From positions 1 through 64,000 of the IMG/VR virus record IMGVR_UViG_3300048815_000026: a stretch of DNA of 64,000 nucleotides, one strand, 5' to 3'. The notes beneath the pieces were generated by a model that was given only the letters and a program-made list of their open reading frames with translations, searched no databases and was not told where the DNA came from. The stretch is from a virus. Every line of letters starts with the position of its first letter. The first letter of the stretch is position 1. Made by a program: the position numbers and the translations under genes. This document shows, piece by piece, positions 17,195 through 26,186 of this stretch.

Positions 17195-17373
17195 AGATCC
17201 AAACCGTCACCATCGGACGCCTGTGTTCCAACAAGGGGTGCAAGCGTGTTGCCCGGCAGGCTCGCTGGTTCAACAACTTCTGGATCTCCTACTGCGACGA
17301 CTGCTGGGGAAAAGTCATCACGCTCGACATGGATAAGATCCCCACACCGCAGAAGGGAGCCGCAACCCTATGA
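17191..17373 (+). CDS. Small Cys-rich protein
   Basis: 60 aa; ATGA overlaps at both ends. Cysteines in LCSNKGCKR and YCDDCWG suggest a zinc ribbon with aromatic core (WFNNFWISY). Second of two adjacent tiny zinc-ribbon genes before the HNH nuclease. Confidence 0.64.
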   Translation: MKIQTVTIGRLCSNKGCKRVARQARWFNNFWISYCDDCWGKVITLDMDKIPTPQKGAATL

Positions 17374-18786: not shown

Positions 18787-19293
18787 ATGGAATACGGCGC
18801 GCGGTGCCACCTCCAGCTCTATCGACTCATTCCCCTCACTCAGGGGAAGTGGGCTACTGTTGACGCCACGGATTACGCGTGGCTGTCGCAATGGAAGTGG
18901 CACGCAAGCTACAGGCCTGAGAGAGACTGCTATTACGCTATTCGCCGTGGCGCGCACCCGGTTTATATGCACCGAGCCATTCTGGGGCTCGAACACGGTG
19001 ATCCGCGGTGGGGAGACCACATCGAACCACCTAAAACCCTAGATAACAGACGGCTCAACCTGCGAGTCGGCAGCGCAGAACAAGGCATTTGGAATAGAAG
19101 AAGGTCGCGAAACAACACCAGCGGATTCAAGGGAGTTTACTGGCGCAAAGACTTAGGCTTGTGGCGCTCCCAAATCTGCGCTGCAGGGGTGCGAATCCAC
19201 CTCGGATACCGCACCACTGCAGAGGCGGCATATACAGAACTCTACGTGCCCGCGTGCCTGCGGTACCACGGAGAGTTTGCGAGGATCGCCTGA
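18787..19293 (+). CDS. HNH-AP2 homing endonuclease
   Basis: 168 aa. N-terminal RLIPLTQGKWATVDATDYAW and YYAIRRGAHPVYMHRAIL lead into the HNH core (GDHIEPPKTLDNRRLNLR); the C-terminal AP2-type DNA-binding domain is SGFKGVYWRKDLGLWRSQIC to GYRTTAEAAYTELY. Free-standing homing nuclease family, paralogue of the 35447-35938 gene. AT-richer codons than its neighbours (e.g. AATAGAAGAAGG) suggest recent arrival. Stop and next start overlap (TGATG). Confidence 0.85.
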   Translation: MEYGARCHLQLYRLIPLTQGKWATVDATDYAWLSQWKWHASYRPERDCYYAIRRGAHPVYMHRAILGLEHGDPRWGDHIEPPKTLDNRRLNLRVGSAEQGIWNRRRSRNNTSGFKGVYWRKDLGLWRSQICAAGVRIHLGYRTTAEAAYTELYVPACLRYHGEFARIA

Positions 19294-20101: not shown

Positions 20102-20340
20102 CGGGCCTGGTCAACATCTCCGGCGGCGACATCATCCGCGTGTTCCCCGTGCGCACGCACTGGACGCCGACTGATCTAAGAGACGTTTTTGACCTGGGCT
20201 TCATGCCCTACTGCCAGCTGTACCAACCGCCGACCGCCGACCGGCCGACGAAAATCTATTCCGCTGAGTGGAAAGCAGTGATGCGTAAGTGGTGCCGCCC
20301 AGCCGCATACATGGGAAGGGAGCCCCATGGGACTCTATAA
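20098..20340 (+). CDS. Hypothetical protein
   Basis: 80 aa from ATG 20098 (ATGA overlap). Starts TGLVNISGGDIIRVFPVRTH and continues with WTPTDLRDVFDLGFMPYCQL. Aromatic-rich and compact; no motif recognised. Overlaps the ASCH gene by 14 nt. Confidence 0.6.
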   Translation: MTGLVNISGGDIIRVFPVRTHWTPTDLRDVFDLGFMPYCQLYQPPTADRPTKIYSAEWKAVMRKWCRPAAYMGREPHGTL

Positions 20341-20677
20341 CTTCAAATCGCAATTCGTGCCTAAGATCCTCGCCGGCGAGAAGACGCACACCATCCGCGC
20401 GGTCAGGGCCAACCCCGACAAACCCGGTAACACGCTGCATCTCTACACCGGCCTGCGCCATAAGGGCGCCCAGCTGCTGATGCGCGCCCAGTGCAGCAAG
20501 GTCGAGGCGATCGAGATCAGTCCCGAGGGCGACATCCTGATCGATGGGACCGAACTGGGCGAAGACGAAATCGAACAGCTCGCCCGCCGCGACGGCTTCG
20601 AGAGCCACGCCGAAATGATGAGGTTCTGGGAGGGCCGGCTCCCCTTTACCGGCCACATCATCCACTGGAGAAAATAA
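20327..20677 (+). CDS. ASCH-domain protein
   Basis: 116 aa. FKSQFVPKILAGEKTHTIRA and NTLHLYTGLRHKGAQLLMRA are the signature strands of ASCH domains, PUA-like folds that bind RNA or modified nucleotides (YqfB-type members are amidohydrolases on N4-acetylcytidine). Acidic helix DELGEDEIEQLARRDGF-like region in the second half. RNA or nucleotide binding is likely; the exact ligand is unknown. Its stop is three bases before the homing gene start, and its end supplies that gene's ribosome site (TGGAG). Confidence 0.75.
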   Translation: MGLYNFKSQFVPKILAGEKTHTIRAVRANPDKPGNTLHLYTGLRHKGAQLLMRAQCSKVEAIEISPEGDILIDGTELGEDEIEQLARRDGFESHAEMMRFWEGRLPFTGHIIHWRK

Positions 20678-20692
20678 ATGTCCGTCGGCCTA
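20678..20692 (+). repeat. Original 5' end of the GH13 gene (copy A), now start of the endonuclease
   Basis: ATG TCC GTC GGC CTA encodes MSVGL in GC-rich phage codons, directly behind the ribosome site at the end of the ASCH gene. The same five residues open the amylase-like gene at 21202. See copy B. Confidence 0.6.
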
Positions 20693-21217
20693 ATGGAATG
20701 GCGAACCATCCCGGGGTTTCCCGATTACGAAGTCTCCAGTGATGGCCAAGTAAAGCGAATCGCCGCCGATAAGTCCGGACGCTTCGCTGGCCACATTATG
20801 TCCCAATGTTTATCGACAAAGGGTTGCTACCGGATCGTCAGCTTGCGAGACCGCTGCGGTAAGAGATCGACGCGTACAGTTCATTCGCTCGTTGCCGTTG
20901 CGTTCCATGGACCGTACCCGCCAGGCAAGGAAGTGCGCCATGAGGACGGCATCGGGATGCATAACCACGCGGCCAACCTCCTCTACGGCACAAGAAAAGA
21001 AAATGCTGAGGACAGGATACGCCACGGGAACAGCCGACGTGGACCGCTGGCAAGAGATGCCAAGCTGTCATGGGATGCCGTGCGGCGCATCCGGTCAACG
21101 CCATTTACGCGAGGGACAGCGACTCGCTTCGCAGAGGAATTCGGCACCGCCGCCGGATCAATCATTAAGGTCAAGCGCGGGGTCACATGGAGGGAAGAAA
21201 CATGTCAGTTGGGTTGA
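20678..21217 (+). CDS. NUMOD4-HNH homing endonuclease fused to target-gene start
   Basis: 179 aa. After a five-residue extension MSVGL comes the usual NUMOD4 opening MEWRTIPGFPDYEVSSDGQV, then VHSLVAVAFHGPYPPGKEV and RHEDGIGMHNHAANLLYGTR (HNH with H and N residues), and a C-terminal NUMOD1-like helix-turn region (GTATRFAEEFGTAAGSIIKV). It uses the ribosome site of the gene it interrupts, and its last codons overlap the rebuilt start of that gene. AT-richer codons than neighbours. Confidence 0.85.
   Translation: MSVGLMEWRTIPGFPDYEVSSDGQVKRIAADKSGRFAGHIMSQCLSTKGCYRIVSLRDRCGKRSTRTVHSLVAVAFHGPYPPGKEVRHEDGIGMHNHAANLLYGTRKENAEDRIRHGNSRRGPLARDAKLSWDAVRRIRSTPFTRGTATRFAEEFGTAAGSIIKVKRGVTWREETCQLG
21202..21216 (+). 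repeat. Recoded 5' end of the GH13 gene (copy B)
   Basis: ATG TCA GTT GGG TTG again encodes MSVGL, but all four codons after ATG differ synonymously from copy A at 20678. It lies inside the 3' end of the endonuclease ORF, in another frame, with its own GGAGGG ribosome site. Confidence 0.6.
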
Positions 21218-22629
21218 TCAACTGGGTGCGCAGTTTCACCTACGACCAAAACGGGGCCATCATTCGTAACCAGAACGGGCCCGTATTCGCCGCCCACCCG
21301 CAACCCAACCTCTGGTCGCTGATCGCCGCCAACGCAAAAAGCCTGGCAGAGTCCTTCGACCTGATCCAGCTGCCCCCGGCTTCCCACGGCTACGGAGAAG
21401 GCTATTCCCCCTTCGAATTACGCGACCTCAACTCCAATTGGGGAGCCGTTGAGGAACTGATCGCCGCCGTCACCACCTGCCACGCCGCCGGCATGCTGGT
21501 CTCGACCGATCTCCCGTTTCGCCAGATGAGCGGCGCCAATGGCGGACCAGGCGTCTTTCTCTACGACGGCCGGCCGGGGGAAACCACCGCGTCCTGGTTT
21601 CAGTTCTTCAACAACCCGGGCGAAACCCTGCCGCCCTTTGTCCCCCAGGACAGCGTGCCCAACGCGCAAGGGAATTACGCCTTCGGGACCGTGCGCAGCT
21701 ACGAAAACTGCATCCCCGCCGGCGTGGTCGAAGCCGACACCACAGACGTGCTGGCCACCATGATAAACACGCTGGGCTTGATTCCCGGCAAAGACATTCC
21801 CCGCTGGGATGACGGCAAGGGCATGCACGCGCCCAGCTGCCTGCGCATCATGAACTCGCAACCGTCGCTGGATTTCTATGTCGAATACTTCTCCGGCAAC
21901 CCAGCCGAGCTCGACTGGTACGTCCGCGATGTGATGCAGAACCGCTGCGCGGTCGAAGACTACGCCCAGTATTGGCACACCCAAAACGCCTGCAATGGCT
22001 ATGACGCGCGGCAATTCGACGCCGGCGGCGGTGGCTACTGGCGATGGAACTCCGCCGCCTCGATCGGCTTCGTCAACAACCCTGATGTGGCCACGAGCTG
22101 GTCGGCCACCGGCGGCATCTCGCAGCAGATTGCGTTTAATTTGCTGCTCGCCTATGCCCATGGCATGTGTCTGCCGTACAAGGAATTTCTGGTCTATGCC
22201 GAAGACTACTTCCCATCAAGCCCTGACTACCCCACCGGTCGCGGGCTTAAAGTTTGGATCGACAACCTATGCTGGTTTAGCCGCACATTTGCATTCGGAA
22301 ACTTTGAGAAGCGCTGGGAGGATAAAGATGTCTACGCATACACTCGCGACGGCAATGGAGGATCGGTTGGCTGGAGCGGCGGCTGCCTGGTCGCTATCAA
22401 CTTCAACACTCTCAACCCCAGAACCATCACGGTCCAAACCCCCTGGCCCGAAGGCGAGCAAGTCCACAACTACTCCGCCACCGGCCACAATGAGGACTAC
22501 ACCGTCGGCCCCGGCGGCCGGCTCACCGTCACCGTCCAATCGAACTACTTCTCCGGCGGCCAGTCCTACCTGCTGATCGCCCCCGGAGGAGTCAACCACC
22601 CTGTAAAGATGCACCCAATCGCCGCCTAA
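21202..22629 (+). CDS. GH13 alpha-amylase-like protein
   Basis: 475 aa. The barrel signature reads DLIQLPPASHGYGEGYSPFE, then region I VSTDLPFRQ (~101), region II PRWDDGKG (~201, matching RxDxxKH with D kept and H lost), region III YVEYFSG (~226, Glu) and region IV FVNNPDV (~290, matching FVDNHD with D kept, H lost). The three catalytic acids appear present, the two substrate His absent. C-terminal ~90 residues are the usual beta-domain (SGGQSYLLIAPGG). No signal peptide. Glycan cleavage or binding is inferred; such a protein among phage early genes is unusual. Confidence 0.72.
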   Translation: MSVGLINWVRSFTYDQNGAIIRNQNGPVFAAHPQPNLWSLIAANAKSLAESFDLIQLPPASHGYGEGYSPFELRDLNSNWGAVEELIAAVTTCHAAGMLVSTDLPFRQMSGANGGPGVFLYDGRPGETTASWFQFFNNPGETLPPFVPQDSVPNAQGNYAFGTVRSYENCIPAGVVEADTTDVLATMINTLGLIPGKDIPRWDDGKGMHAPSCLRIMNSQPSLDFYVEYFSGNPAELDWYVRDVMQNRCAVEDYAQYWHTQNACNGYDARQFDAGGGGYWRWNSAASIGFVNNPDVATSWSATGGISQQIAFNLLLAYAHGMCLPYKEFLVYAEDYFPSSPDYPTGRGLKVWIDNLCWFSRTFAFGNFEKRWEDKDVYAYTRDGNGGSVGWSGGCLVAINFNTLNPRTITVQTPWPEGEQVHNYSATGHNEDYTVGPGGRLTVTVQSNYFSGGQSYLLIAPGGVNHPVKMHPIAA

Positions 22630-22647
22630 CCGAAAGGAGCAACATCT

Positions 22648-22875
22648 ATGACCACCGATCCCAACGAAGCCATCGCGGAAGAACTGCTCACCGCAGTAGT
22701 CAGCGCAGATGAAGAGATCCTGCAGGCTGACCCCCTGCCCAAGCTCCCCGTAACCTACGAGGAAAAGGAAGCGCTCGCCAACAAAATCTGGAGAGACAAT
22801 GGCGCCGTCGAAAACGACCCGCGCACCCTCAACAACTGGCTCGACGCCGAGATCATCCTCGAGACCAAGAGCTAA
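22648..22875 (+). CDS. Small acidic protein
   Basis: 75 aa with GAAAGGAG upstream. Acidic helices (NEAIAEELLTAVVSADEEIL) and EKEALANKIWRDNG, ending LDAEIILETKS. Resembles small DUF-type phage proteins with a HHH-like tail only superficially. No function assigned. Confidence 0.65.
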   Translation: MTTDPNEAIAEELLTAVVSADEEILQADPLPKLPVTYEEKEALANKIWRDNGAVENDPRTLNNWLDAEIILETKS

Positions 22876-22930
22876 AAAGGAAACCGGCCTGCCGTTCGCA
22901 AGGGCGGCAGCGGCCAGAGGGCGGTTAAAA

Positions 22931-23722
22931 ATGGCTGAGATACCAGAGCGCATTTGGATTGCAGCATACACGGCGGGCGATGGGTCTTCCATCTTGGGCA
23001 ACGGGGTATTATTCCGCTCCATCCATGATTCGCGGGAGGATGCTGAGGGCGCAGCCCAGCGCTACCACCCAGATCCGAATGGCATCACTATCGGCGAGTA
23101 CGTCGCCGAGGCACGCATCAGGGAATTAGAGCAGGCGCTGCGGAAAATCCACCAAGAGCCGGATGGATTGAATGCGTGGCATATCGCAGATAAGGTTTTG
23201 GGCTCCCTCGAGGCAGATAACCTCCGGCTGTTTACGGCCCTCATGAGAACACGCGAAGTGTGCGGGCGGATCCCGGTTGGCTCTCCCGCCAGCAAGGAAC
23301 TGCTCGAAGAGGCGGTCGAAGCGGTCAAGCATGCCAACGAGGCGATCGGGATCTATCAACCGAAAGGATCAGCGGGCAGTGGCTCCTTGCCTGACCATGG
23401 GTCACTCCAGGCCCAGCTCCAGGCAGTCACCCAGACCGCATTCGCTGATATCAATCGCATGACGGTCGAATTGCAGGCAGTCACCCAGGAGCGGGACACG
23501 GCCAACGAACTATCTGTAAAGGTCGAGAATGCTGCGGTAATTCAAGCACGGGAAATGACCCAGCTTCAGGCCCGCAACAAAGCGCTGAGAGATGCGCTGC
23601 GGACCTACAGGTACGAGCACTCGAAAAACAACTGCTATTTTTCTGGCCCTACGGGCGCCATTTGCGATGAGTGCTGCAGGGTCGATAAGTTGCTCGCCCA
23701 AGCCGCCGAGGTAAAGCCATGA
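22931..23722 (+). CDS. Coiled-coil hypothetical protein
   Basis: 263 aa from ATG 22931. N-terminal ~50 residues (ERIWIAAYTAGDGSSILGNG) form a beta-rich module; then helices and a coiled coil with a repeated phrase LQAVTQ (twice, ~25 residues apart). C-terminal Cys/His cluster (NNCYFSGPTGAICDECCR) may bind a metal. AT-richer than its neighbours. Overlaps the beta-propeller gene by ATGA. Confidence 0.62.
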   Translation: MAEIPERIWIAAYTAGDGSSILGNGVLFRSIHDSREDAEGAAQRYHPDPNGITIGEYVAEARIRELEQALRKIHQEPDGLNAWHIADKVLGSLEADNLRLFTALMRTREVCGRIPVGSPASKELLEEAVEAVKHANEAIGIYQPKGSAGSGSLPDHGSLQAQLQAVTQTAFADINRMTVELQAVTQERDTANELSVKVENAAVIQAREMTQLQARNKALRDALRTYRYEHSKNNCYFSGPTGAICDECCRVDKLLAQAAEVKP

Positions 23723-25638
23723 GACCGCGCAAAAACTCCCACGTCATCGCCATCGGCCTGACTCTCTCCGTGGGCATACTCCTGCTGCTGGTGCACGCCT
23801 GCAACGCGCAGACGATGGCCCCCTGGCTCACCCGGTCACACGACAACCAGCGCTCGGGCTGGAACAACCAGGAAACCCTGCTCACCCAGGCAAACGTAAC
23901 CGCCAAAGGTCTCGTTCGCCAAACCATCATCCCGGTCACCGGTGACGCCCGCGGCATGGAGGCTCAGCCGCTCATCCTGCCCGGCGTCACCACCCCTCTC
24001 GGCGTCCACGATGTGATGGTCCTTCCCTCGATGGCTAACGTCGTCCGCGGCGTCGACGCCCACACCGGCGCCGGCATCTGGACCACTATGCTGGACGTGC
24101 CGATTACCGGCTCCGCCGCGATCGACGGCCACCTCATCAACCAGCACTGGGGCTGCCTCTCGACCGGCGTCATCGATGCCGCCCTGCAACGGCTGTACCA
24201 GGTGTGCTGGATGTCGCCCGACGCGACAGGCAATCCGCAGACCGGGCTCTACTACATGTACGTGCTTAACGTGGCCACCGGCGCCCAGGTGGTCCCGCCC
24301 GTCCTCCTACAGGGCGGCACGCCGGCCTTCAGCGCCCAGATGCGCAAGCAGCGCAGCTCCCTGGTCGAAACCAACGTCAACGGCCTCAAAACCGTCTTCG
24401 GCTGTTCGGGGACCATCTACGAAACCGCCGCCGGCGCCGCGGGCTACTGCTTCGCCTTCGATGTCGCCAGCAACACTCTCACCACCATGCAGGCGCTCAC
24501 TGATGGTGAAGGCGCCGGCGTCTGGATGGGCGGCCAAGGCCCCGCGGCCGACGCGCAAGGCTACCTTTACCTGCTTACCGGAAATGGAGATTTCGACGGG
24601 ATCACCCAATGGGGCGAGTCCCTGCTAAAGCTGCGCTACAGGGCCGAAAAGATCACGCAAGTAAGTCCCAACCAATCCACGTATATCCAGGCATCTCTGG
24701 CCGTCATCGACAACTGGACCCCATGGACCGACCTCCAGCGCGCCGGCAACACCGCAGCGCCCGCCGCCAAACTCGCCGGCATGAGCGCGCCCTCGGAAGC
24801 AGCACGGCCAGTCAACAGCGGCATGAAGCCGGCGGTCAAGTCCCGCACCGTAATAAGCGCCAACGGCACGCCCCTGGTCTATCCGCAGATGGCCACCGGC
24901 GCCTGGAGCGATGAGGATTGGGGATCCGCCGGCCCCGCCTGCCTATTTCAGATCAACATCTGCATAGCAACCGGCAAAGACGGCATAGGCTACCCAGTCA
25001 AGTCTCCGCACCTCGGGCAGACGCGACCGGCCGACCTGGCGAATCCCGCGGCCAACTGCGCCAAACTCGCCGGCGCGCCCGCCTGGCTCACCATGGATCC
25101 GGGGCCCGTCAACCCGTGCCCGACGAACCCGGCAACCTTGAATTTCTTTCCGTGGGGCGACACCGCGCACTTACACGCCACCCCAGTGCAGATGTACGAC
25201 CCGCTCTTAAAAAGCTGGACGATCTTTGTGTGGGGAGAAAACGCCCAGCTGCACAAGTGGGCAGTCAACTCCGCCGGCAAACTGACCTACATAGCGCAAA
25301 GCCACGAATACGCCAGTGCAAATGTTCGGGGAACCCCACCAGGCGGAATGCCCGGGGGCTTTTGCTCAGGCTCGAGCAACGGAGGGAATGCCAACACCGC
25401 GCTGCTGGTCTGCAGCGTGCCCTATGGCGACGCCAACACCGCCGTGGTCGCCGGCCGGCTCCTGGTCTACGACCCGGTACACCTGACCGCGGATGGATCG
25501 CTCAAGGTGCTCTGGGATTCCCAACAGTGGGGGATCACTTACCTCTTCAACAAATTCGACCCGCCGGTGATCGACGGCGGAGAGATACTAAATCCGAATT
25601 ACAATGGAGGAGTAGACGTTTATACCTTAGCCCCATGA
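23719..25638 (+). CDS. Secreted beta-propeller (PQQ-like) protein
   Basis: 639 aa. Residues 1-31 are a signal peptide (RPRKNSHVIAIGLTLSVGIL, hydrophobic run, CNAQ). The mature start WLTRSHDNQRSGWNNQETLL with TQANVTAKGL is the typical opening of PQQ-like beta-propeller proteins secreted by Acidobacteriota; blade motifs (VRGVDAHTGAGIWTTML, QGYLYLLTGNGDF) follow. Likely exported. Last codons (GAG ATA CTA AAT CCG onward) use rare AT-rich codons because the 3' end has been rebuilt by the adjacent endonuclease gene. Role in infection unknown. Confidence 0.78.
   Translation: MRPRKNSHVIAIGLTLSVGILLLLVHACNAQTMAPWLTRSHDNQRSGWNNQETLLTQANVTAKGLVRQTIIPVTGDARGMEAQPLILPGVTTPLGVHDVMVLPSMANVVRGVDAHTGAGIWTTMLDVPITGSAAIDGHLINQHWGCLSTGVIDAALQRLYQVCWMSPDATGNPQTGLYYMYVLNVATGAQVVPPVLLQGGTPAFSAQMRKQRSSLVETNVNGLKTVFGCSGTIYETAAGAAGYCFAFDVASNTLTTMQALTDGEGAGVWMGGQGPAADAQGYLYLLTGNGDFDGITQWGESLLKLRYRAEKITQVSPNQSTYIQASLAVIDNWTPWTDLQRAGNTAAPAAKLAGMSAPSEAARPVNSGMKPAVKSRTVISANGTPLVYPQMATGAWSDEDWGSAGPACLFQINICIATGKDGIGYPVKSPHLGQTRPADLANPAANCAKLAGAPAWLTMDPGPVNPCPTNPATLNFFPWGDTAHLHATPVQMYDPLLKSWTIFVWGENAQLHKWAVNSAGKLTYIAQSHEYASANVRGTPPGGMPGGFCSGSSNGGNANTALLVCSVPYGDANTAVVAGRLLVYDPVHLTADGSLKVLWDSQQWGITYLFNKFDPPVIDGGEILNPNYNGGVDVYTLAP
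25597..25623 (+). repeat. Recoded 3' end of the propeller gene (copy A)
   Basis: Nine codons for NYNGGVDVY in AT-rich spelling (AAT, GGA, GGA, GTA, GTT). Six of nine differ synonymously from copy B at 26145-26171. Followed by TLAP and a stop that overlaps the endonuclease ATG. Confidence 0.7.
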
Positions 25639-26186
25639 AAACACTTATACCTTCGACGCGCCGGGAGAACCTCGCTGGCAAGCAATTCTTTCGACTTACA
25701 GCTCTGGAATATGCGGGAGACTCGCACTGGACCTGCTCCTGCGAATGTGGCCGTATCGTCACGGTCGATGCTTACAAGCTGAAGACCGGGCGCACTGTTA
25801 GCTGCGGTTGCTTTCGCAACGAATGTTCAAGGAATCGAGCCACGATCCACGGGCAAAGCAACACCCCGACCTGGCGAGTCTGGAATGGCATGCTGCGCAG
25901 ATGCTACGACCATAAGTTCCACGCCTACGACCGGTACGGTGGTCGTGGGATTGGTGTCGTTGATCGGTGGCGTGGCGAATCCGGATTCGCAAACTTTCTG
26001 CATGACATGGGAGAGCGTCCGGCGGGCAAGTCGTTGGATAGGTTTCCGGATAACTCGGCTGGGTACGGACCGGATAACTGCCGGTGGGCGACACCTAAAG
26101 AGCAATCTAATAACAGACGGCCACGGCGCGACAGCAGAAAAACCAACTACAACGGCGGCGTGGACGTATATGGGCTAACGGAGTGA
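25635..26186 (+). CDS. HNH-like homing endonuclease fused to target-gene end
   Basis: 183 aa from ATG 25635 (ATGA overlap). N-terminal zinc-ribbon CSCECGR and SCGCFRNE, then the common phage endonuclease core: TWRVWNGMLRRCYD, YDRYGGRGIGVVDRW, FLHDMGERPAGKSLDRFPDN and YGPDNCRWATPKEQSNNRR (His-Me-finger-like D-R...N...C-W). The last 13 codons (NYNGGVDVYGLTE) do not belong to the family: they are the displaced 3' end of the beta-propeller gene. Its stop overlaps the next gene as GTGA, a coupling inherited from the target gene. Confidence 0.85.
   Translation: MKTLIPSTRRENLAGKQFFRLTALEYAGDSHWTCSCECGRIVTVDAYKLKTGRTVSCGCFRNECSRNRATIHGQSNTPTWRVWNGMLRRCYDHKFHAYDRYGGRGIGVVDRWRGESGFANFLHDMGERPAGKSLDRFPDNSAGYGPDNCRWATPKEQSNNRRPRRDSRKTNYNGGVDVYGLTE
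26145..26171 (+). repeat. Displaced original 3' end of the propeller gene (copy B)
   Basis: Nine codons for NYNGGVDVY in GC-rich phage spelling (AAC, GGC, GGC, GTG), in frame at the C-terminus of the endonuclease. See copy A. Confidence 0.7.

Follow-up and report, generated by a model that had tools for sequence, protein, structure and literature searches.

Among the selfish genes of phages, free-standing homing endonucleases rank with the commonest, and to our knowledge their settling at gene edges without destruction of the neighboring gene is poorly explained. A 64,000-nucleotide part of an uncultured phage's IMG/VR virus record of 69,310 bases (here called the window) raises this question at one locus, where a gene for an HNH endonuclease (HNH2) and the amylase-like gene after it open with the same five residues. 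Which of the two genes owns this start, and how did it come to be there twice? The terminase of the window shares 75 to 81% identity with proteins in Acidobacteriaceae or Acidobacteria assemblies, and homologues of window genes in such genomes are called host homologues below. The upstream copy of a 5' end is called the relic and the downstream copy the patch; at a 3' end the order is reversed (Table 1).

Table 1. Features of the two endonuclease loci, in window coordinates
Feature	Position	Strand	Basis or remark
ASCH-like gene	20327..20677	+	ORF; phrog_8581, E 1.5e-14; Pfam ASCH below cut-off; directly upstream of HNH2
HNH2, NUMOD4 + HNH_3 homing endonuclease, 179 aa	20678..21217	+	Pfam, phrog
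Relic, ATG TCC GTC GGC CTA (MSVGL), in frame with HNH2	20678..20692	+	Sequence; family N-terminus in host homologues; codon usage
GGAGGG, ribosome-binding-site-like, within HNH2 3' end	21189..21194	+	Sequence
Patch, ATG TCA GTT GGG TTG, regenerated 5' end	21202..21216	+	Sequence; synonymous differences from relic
Amylase-like (GH13-like) target, 475 aa	21202..22629	+	Acidobacteriaceae homologues 38-47% identical
PQQ-like gene, target of mirror-image element	23719..25638	+	Best host homologues ~70% identical
Probable patch, regenerated PQQ-like 3' end (GEILNPNYNGGVDVYTLAP)	25579..25638	+	GC3 fall; EILN; exact left border uncertain
HNH3, unrelated HNH endonuclease, 183 aa	25635..26186	+	phrog_374, 3.4e-55; start overlaps PQQ-like stop
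Relic, original PQQ-like 3' end (NYNGGVDVYGLTE, then stop), in frame with HNH3 end	26145..26186	+	Host homologue endings; p 3e-7

HNH2 has Pfam matches to NUMOD4 (5e-10, 39.9 bits, cut-off 23.4) and HNH_3 (2.7e-8, 33.8 bits, cut-off 24.8) and matches phrog_59 at 6.8e-35. Its ATG is abutted by the stop codon of the ASCH-like gene (TAA, 20675-20677), and it opens at 20678 with ATG TCC GTC GGC CTA ATG GAA TGG (MSVGL-MEW). The amylase-like gene starts out of frame within the last HNH2 codons, 7 nt after the GGAGGG, and opens at 21202 with ATG TCA GTT GGG TTG ATC AAC TGG (MSVGL-INW). The initial annotation had described this pair as a duplicate in which all four codons after ATG are synonymous, and the sequence confirms it: codons 2 to 5 differ in 4 of 4 cases, with no amino acid change.

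Excising 20693-21216 would leave one in-frame gene start, as would be expected if the HNH gene belonged to a self-splicing intron or an intein whose splicing rejoins MSVGL to INW. However, searches of the window element and of six comparable loci gave no match to an Rfam intron family, and a group I intron at HNH2 was rejected on the lack of any Rfam ribozyme match flanking the endonuclease in the same set. The HNH2 ORF moreover occupies the whole insert, end to end, is fused on one side only, and has its own stop at 21217, and splicing is not needed where the regenerated start comes with a ribosome-site-like sequence of its own. We consider splicing very improbable here; HNH2 is a free-standing homing endonuclease gene, outside any intron or intein.

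The owner of MSVGL was sought among homologues of both proteins. The amylase-like protein has no Pfam match, and its GH13 label is weakly suggested by a PDB amylase (6sao, E=0.0023) and by a below-threshold Alpha-amy_C_pro match in one homologue. Homologues occur in 20 of the 398 genomes of the family of genome G001, and the 11 aligned full-length ones start with MAVGLI-W, MAIGLI-W, MAIGLL-W, MAVGFI-W, MSVGLI-W, or MSISLI-W, which gives M[AS][VI]G[LF]I-W as the N-terminus of the family in Acidobacteriaceae. The viral protein is without a C-terminal part of about 100 residues that the host proteins have. Because the host homologues begin in this way, we take MSVGLI-W to be the native start of the amylase-like gene. 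Neither SVG nor VGL occurs near the endonuclease start at any of 81 other NUMOD4-family loci, presence at unrelated loci being a refutation that the initial annotation had named, and together with the native start of the target this argues that MSVGL on HNH2 is a captured 5' end of the amylase-like gene. The claim that these residues are a foreign extension of the endonuclease is thus borne out.

DNA and protein searches of phages and viral contigs found no uninterrupted viral relative of this site and no viral relative with an amylase-like gene next to an ASCH gene. For the amylase-like protein itself, phages searched by DNA and protein gave nothing usable, and neither did viral contigs searched with the single protein, with alignment patterns, and with the degenerate motif GYxPxxLxDLN; one candidate (L074) was rejected as too distant at 29% identity. 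Relatives of the ASCH-like gene have different genes downstream, and relatives of the terminase (L002, L003, L020, and L021) have the structural module in common and the amylase-like cassette absent.

The same virus has a mirror image of this arrangement, in which the PQQ-like gene is affected at its 3' end. In most host homologues the native ending of this protein is PNYNGGVDVYxL[TA]x or close to it. The ending is encoded at the end of the PQQ-like gene as AAT TAC AAT GGA GGA GTA... (NYNGGVDVYTLAP) and again at the end of HNH3 as AAC TAC AAC GGC GGC GTG... (NYNGGVDVYGLTE), with 7 of the 10 same-residue codons differing. The HNH3 tail reaches past the end of most HNH3 relatives, which have no such tail. 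GC3 drops from about 0.8-1.0 to 0.2-0.4 across the last ~19 codons of the PQQ-like gene, where the protein has EILN versus QIYV in most homologues. A target end is thus present twice with an endonuclease between the copies at both loci, MSVGL at HNH2 and NYNGGVDVYxL at HNH3. The two enzymes are unrelated (phrog_59/NUMOD4 type versus phrog_374 type), in agreement with what had been proposed at the outset, and since HNH2 sits at the 5' end of its target, only HNH3 fits a C-terminal duplication.

The PQQ-like gene adjoins the amylase-like gene in several Acidobacteriaceae chromosomes (for example, G159 C230 and G118 C1), so these two genes of the virus seem to be a pair derived from the host, and the stretch 21202-25638 is probably a host-derived cassette. 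This pair is bracketed by the two endonucleases, HNH2 on the 5' side and HNH3 on the 3' side.

The initial annotation had further read the silent differences as an excess of synonymous change. This part was not borne out. Among host homologues, 71% of same-amino-acid codons differ at the four positions concerned, and four synonymous differences out of four are expected in about 25% of host-homologue comparisons. The silent recoding is ordinary divergence between homologues, without excess, and no special recoding is needed because homologues in the host already differ to this degree. The patch resembles the DNA of a diverged homologue. Codon usage was compared with that of the gene bodies. In the HNH2 case the left copy is favored as native, by 4.7 nats with the body of the amylase-like gene as reference or 6.3 nats with that of the PQQ-like gene, but not with phage structural genes (log-likelihood ratio of -1.5). 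In the HNH3 case it is the right copy that is favored, by the PQQ-like body (8.3), the amylase-like body (6.0), and the structural genes (4.7). GC3 in the amylase-like gene is 0.6 in the patch and 1.0 over the next five codons.

Empty and filled versions of one site are found in mycobacteriophages. An HNH gene lies within the 5' end of an exonuclease gene in Lesedi and is absent from Monet, Nepal, Watermelon, and Alvin, which gives presence and absence at one site among related genomes. The upstream relic in Lesedi matches the beginning of the uninterrupted Monet gene at 66 of 66 nucleotides, while the regenerated start shares about 60% identity with it over ~105 nt, and the patch region about 61% over 120 nt, so that the inserted copy is more diverged from relatives than the relic. 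This divergence ends about 14 codons beyond the point of insertion; the gene body, from CGC CCA GCG GCC TGG onward, is 95 to 100% identical. The relic in BluSpix is of the Alvin type (74 of 75 nucleotides identical). Over 650 nt, the HNH gene and patch of Lesedi are identical to those of four other phages at 647 to 649 positions (at least 99.5% across the five phages); the DNA 60 to 160 nt upstream in these phages is unrelated (22 to 31%), and the relics differ by recipient. This combination argues that the HNH gene and patch move as a unit, a single block that has entered several recipients at one site. In these mycobacteriophages, the empty sites prove insertion together with a regenerated 5' end.

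Such comparisons also bear on whether the patch was imported at all. If the gene start had been duplicated in tandem within this genome and had then mutated silently, with selection acting against recombination between the repeats, five codons with silent differences only would be left, as seen at HNH2, where both copies would be translated. Against this, the mycobacteriophage patch is common to five phages at an identity of at least 99.5% while the relics are recipient specific, so the patch travels with the element. The divergence between copies equals that between homologues, and the patches reach beyond the duplicated part (by about 14 codons in Lesedi and about 6 in the PQQ-like gene). 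We regard a tandem duplication as unlikely and favor a patch carried in with the endonuclease.

The mycobacteriophage annotations reflect this structure. In Mycobacterium phage McGuire, the relic of the exonuclease 5' end that precedes the HNH gene (105 bp; L252, 1420-1524) is annotated as a separate exonuclease gene (gp72), and gp64 of Lesedi is annotated from an internal ATG. Homing with a substitute gene end would explain odd N-terminal extensions and wrongly called starts such as these two, and it would create chimeric gene ends. The start of the Lesedi HNH protein, MPENLIRNE (L078, 2468-2494), resembles the exonuclease starts VTENLTRN and MPTDLTRNE of Alvin and Gwendoluna, which suggests, but does not prove, that it is an older captured end and that two nested rounds of insertion took place. 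A match of the same HNH start to Bxb1 was dismissed as chance, its position being the end of the Bxb1 exonuclease gene.

We screened for target-end duplications at HNH loci in general. Two scans, each of 80 loci ranked by similarity to the window's own endonucleases, were made for the HNH2 and HNH3 families and yielded 152 non-redundant HNH loci. The translated left flank of each endonuclease was compared with its right flank against a composition-shuffled null, with 571 other genes of the same loci as controls. A flank duplication at p<1e-3 was found at 8 of the 152 HNH loci, including HNH3 of the window, which had prompted the screen, and at 0 of the 571 controls (Fisher, 3e-6). This analysis replaced a cruder cross-locus null and ORF control which were tainted by low-complexity frames and redundancy and overstated the enrichment; in that earlier ORF control the difference was not significant at scores of at least 45. 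A screen had been proposed for HNH genes that duplicate the end of a neighbor with excess synonymous change; the duplicates do recur. Taken with the mycobacteriophage empty sites, the recurrence upholds the suggestion that the mode is general. The other 144 loci show no such duplication, which makes this mode one of several.

Targets of the 5' type include a Cas4-like PD-(D/E)XK exonuclease (L078), a cell wall hydrolase (L076), a RuvC-like protein (L115), an AAA ATPase (L084), and an unidentified protein (L143). Two further loci (L165 and L111) are probably of the 3' type, and a D12 methylase case (L210) is weaker, with a p of 5e-3 in its relative L212. In-frame 5' fusions like MSVGL-MEW recur at the RuvC-like and AAA ATPase loci, as in MPTLDTVDTGSA-EDEEWRPVPG followed by a target starting MPSLDTVDTGSA. 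At another locus (L090, 2366-4507), a NUMOD4-HNH endonuclease continues in frame from a RuvC-like N-terminus (AVLALDLGTTT), and a downstream RuvC-like copy was looked for there and not found. This insertion may have cost the target gene, and regeneration is therefore not universal. At L096 a NUMOD4 endonuclease and the next ORF (3971 and 4546) begin alike with the short start MSRR. Within the window, no flank duplication was found at two more HNH genes, one at 17370 and the AP2-type HNH1 (18787-19293), the latter with a 13-residue N-terminal extension, MEYGARCHLQLYR.

The match at HNH2 is short, and alone its five residues give a p of 0.85 in the general flank-alignment test, for which they are too few. 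N-terminal extensions also vary among NUMOD4 endonucleases, so the shared residues might be coincidental and HNH2 an endonuclease with an ordinary short extension, inserted between two genes. When the test is anchored at gene starts, however, identity of residues 2 to 5 between left-flank and right-flank starts occurs in 7 of 22,952 cross-locus pairs, a chance rate of 3e-4 per locus; over the 152 loci 0.046 such matches are expected and 2 were seen, one of them the HNH2 seed case. The shared residues match the start that is conserved in the target family, similar architecture is longer and certain at other loci, and the 3' mirror case lies in the same virus, all of which makes coincidence quite improbable. 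The HNH2 match carries weight because of its anchored start, the family-conserved amylase-like N-terminus, and the demonstrated general pattern.

With considerable confidence, we propose that HNH2 is a free-standing homing endonuclease gene that entered the amylase-like gene behind codon 5 and brought a substitute 5' end with it, and that HNH3 did likewise with the 3' end of the PQQ-like gene. An uninterrupted copy, which at HNH2 would have read ...GTCGGCCTA|ATCAACTGG..., would be cut by the endonuclease near the 5' end of the gene, and repair would copy endonuclease and patch from the donor. The gene body would provide the right homology for this repair and, once the element is established, the relic the left. 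The original five codons would stay upstream and, with their ribosome site, now start HNH2, while the 3' end of HNH2 would supply a ribosome site, an ATG, and four synonymously different codons; the target would still be made because the element carries a substitute 5' end. In general terms, the patch would be a stretch of a diverged homologue that restores the target gene, and the relic would serve the endonuclease as a start in the 5' type, when in frame, and as a tail in the 3' type. The different spelling of the patch probably also hides the site from the enzyme and keeps the element from being lost by recombination between the two copies. Carriage of a substitute gene end would account for settlement at gene edges without destruction of the neighbor, and its recurrence points to a real way for endonuclease genes to spread without killing the gene that they invade. 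Whether this fuse-and-regenerate mode amounts to a widespread, unnamed class of phage homing element, beside intron- or intein-borne and intergenic ones, is in our judgment evenly balanced; the mobile unit of such a class would be an endonuclease plus a substitute gene end, invading coding sequence at either gene end without splicing, and the two elements of the window might co-mobilize the host-derived pair.

Several known systems share parts of this arrangement. Phage nucleases have been noted at exchange boundaries (PMC10448857). In phage ShiLan, a hidden HNH insertion without a splicing element is present in a methylase (PMC11855218). As in our cases, the HNH gene lies in coding sequence, and residues 1 to 11 of the insert are similar to those on its right; the ShiLan insertion differs in lying inside the gene, with proposed read-through and no regenerated start. 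The free-standing endonucleases of T-even phages, such as SegF and MobE, home without introns, and as described in a review (PMC2988022), they too have no intron or intein and spread by cutting and repair with co-conversion of the flanks. Those of T4, however, flank genes or sit between them, and their cleavage sites are distant; a relic plus a regenerated gene end is not described in the review as far as it was searched. Nor did term searches of PMC3630166, PMC4019555, PMC2988022, PMC10448857, and PMC12724721 find a 5' end described as captured and regenerated. For phages, the 5' form appears to be undescribed in the literature searched, an absence which is weak evidence of novelty because the search spans open-licence papers only. 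The 3' form is already known from fungal mitochondria: C-terminal duplications in which an endonuclease separates the native from the inserted end, in mobile ORFs termed mORFs, are established in Allomyces atp6 and Glomus atp6, atp9, cox2, and nad3 (PMC3630166), and a C-terminal duplication with an endonuclease also in Phlebia mitochondria (PMC4019555). The mORFs likewise place (PMC3630166) an endonuclease gene and a substitute end at the end of a gene, with the native end beyond the endonuclease and the two copies differing mostly silently, and HNH3 with the PQQ-like gene would be their phage counterpart. Those mORFs act at C-termini in organelles, mainly with LAGLIDADG or GIY-YIG enzymes, whereas the enzymes here are HNH endonucleases of phages, and HNH2, unlike a mORF, acts at the 5' end of its target, with the relic as its own start.
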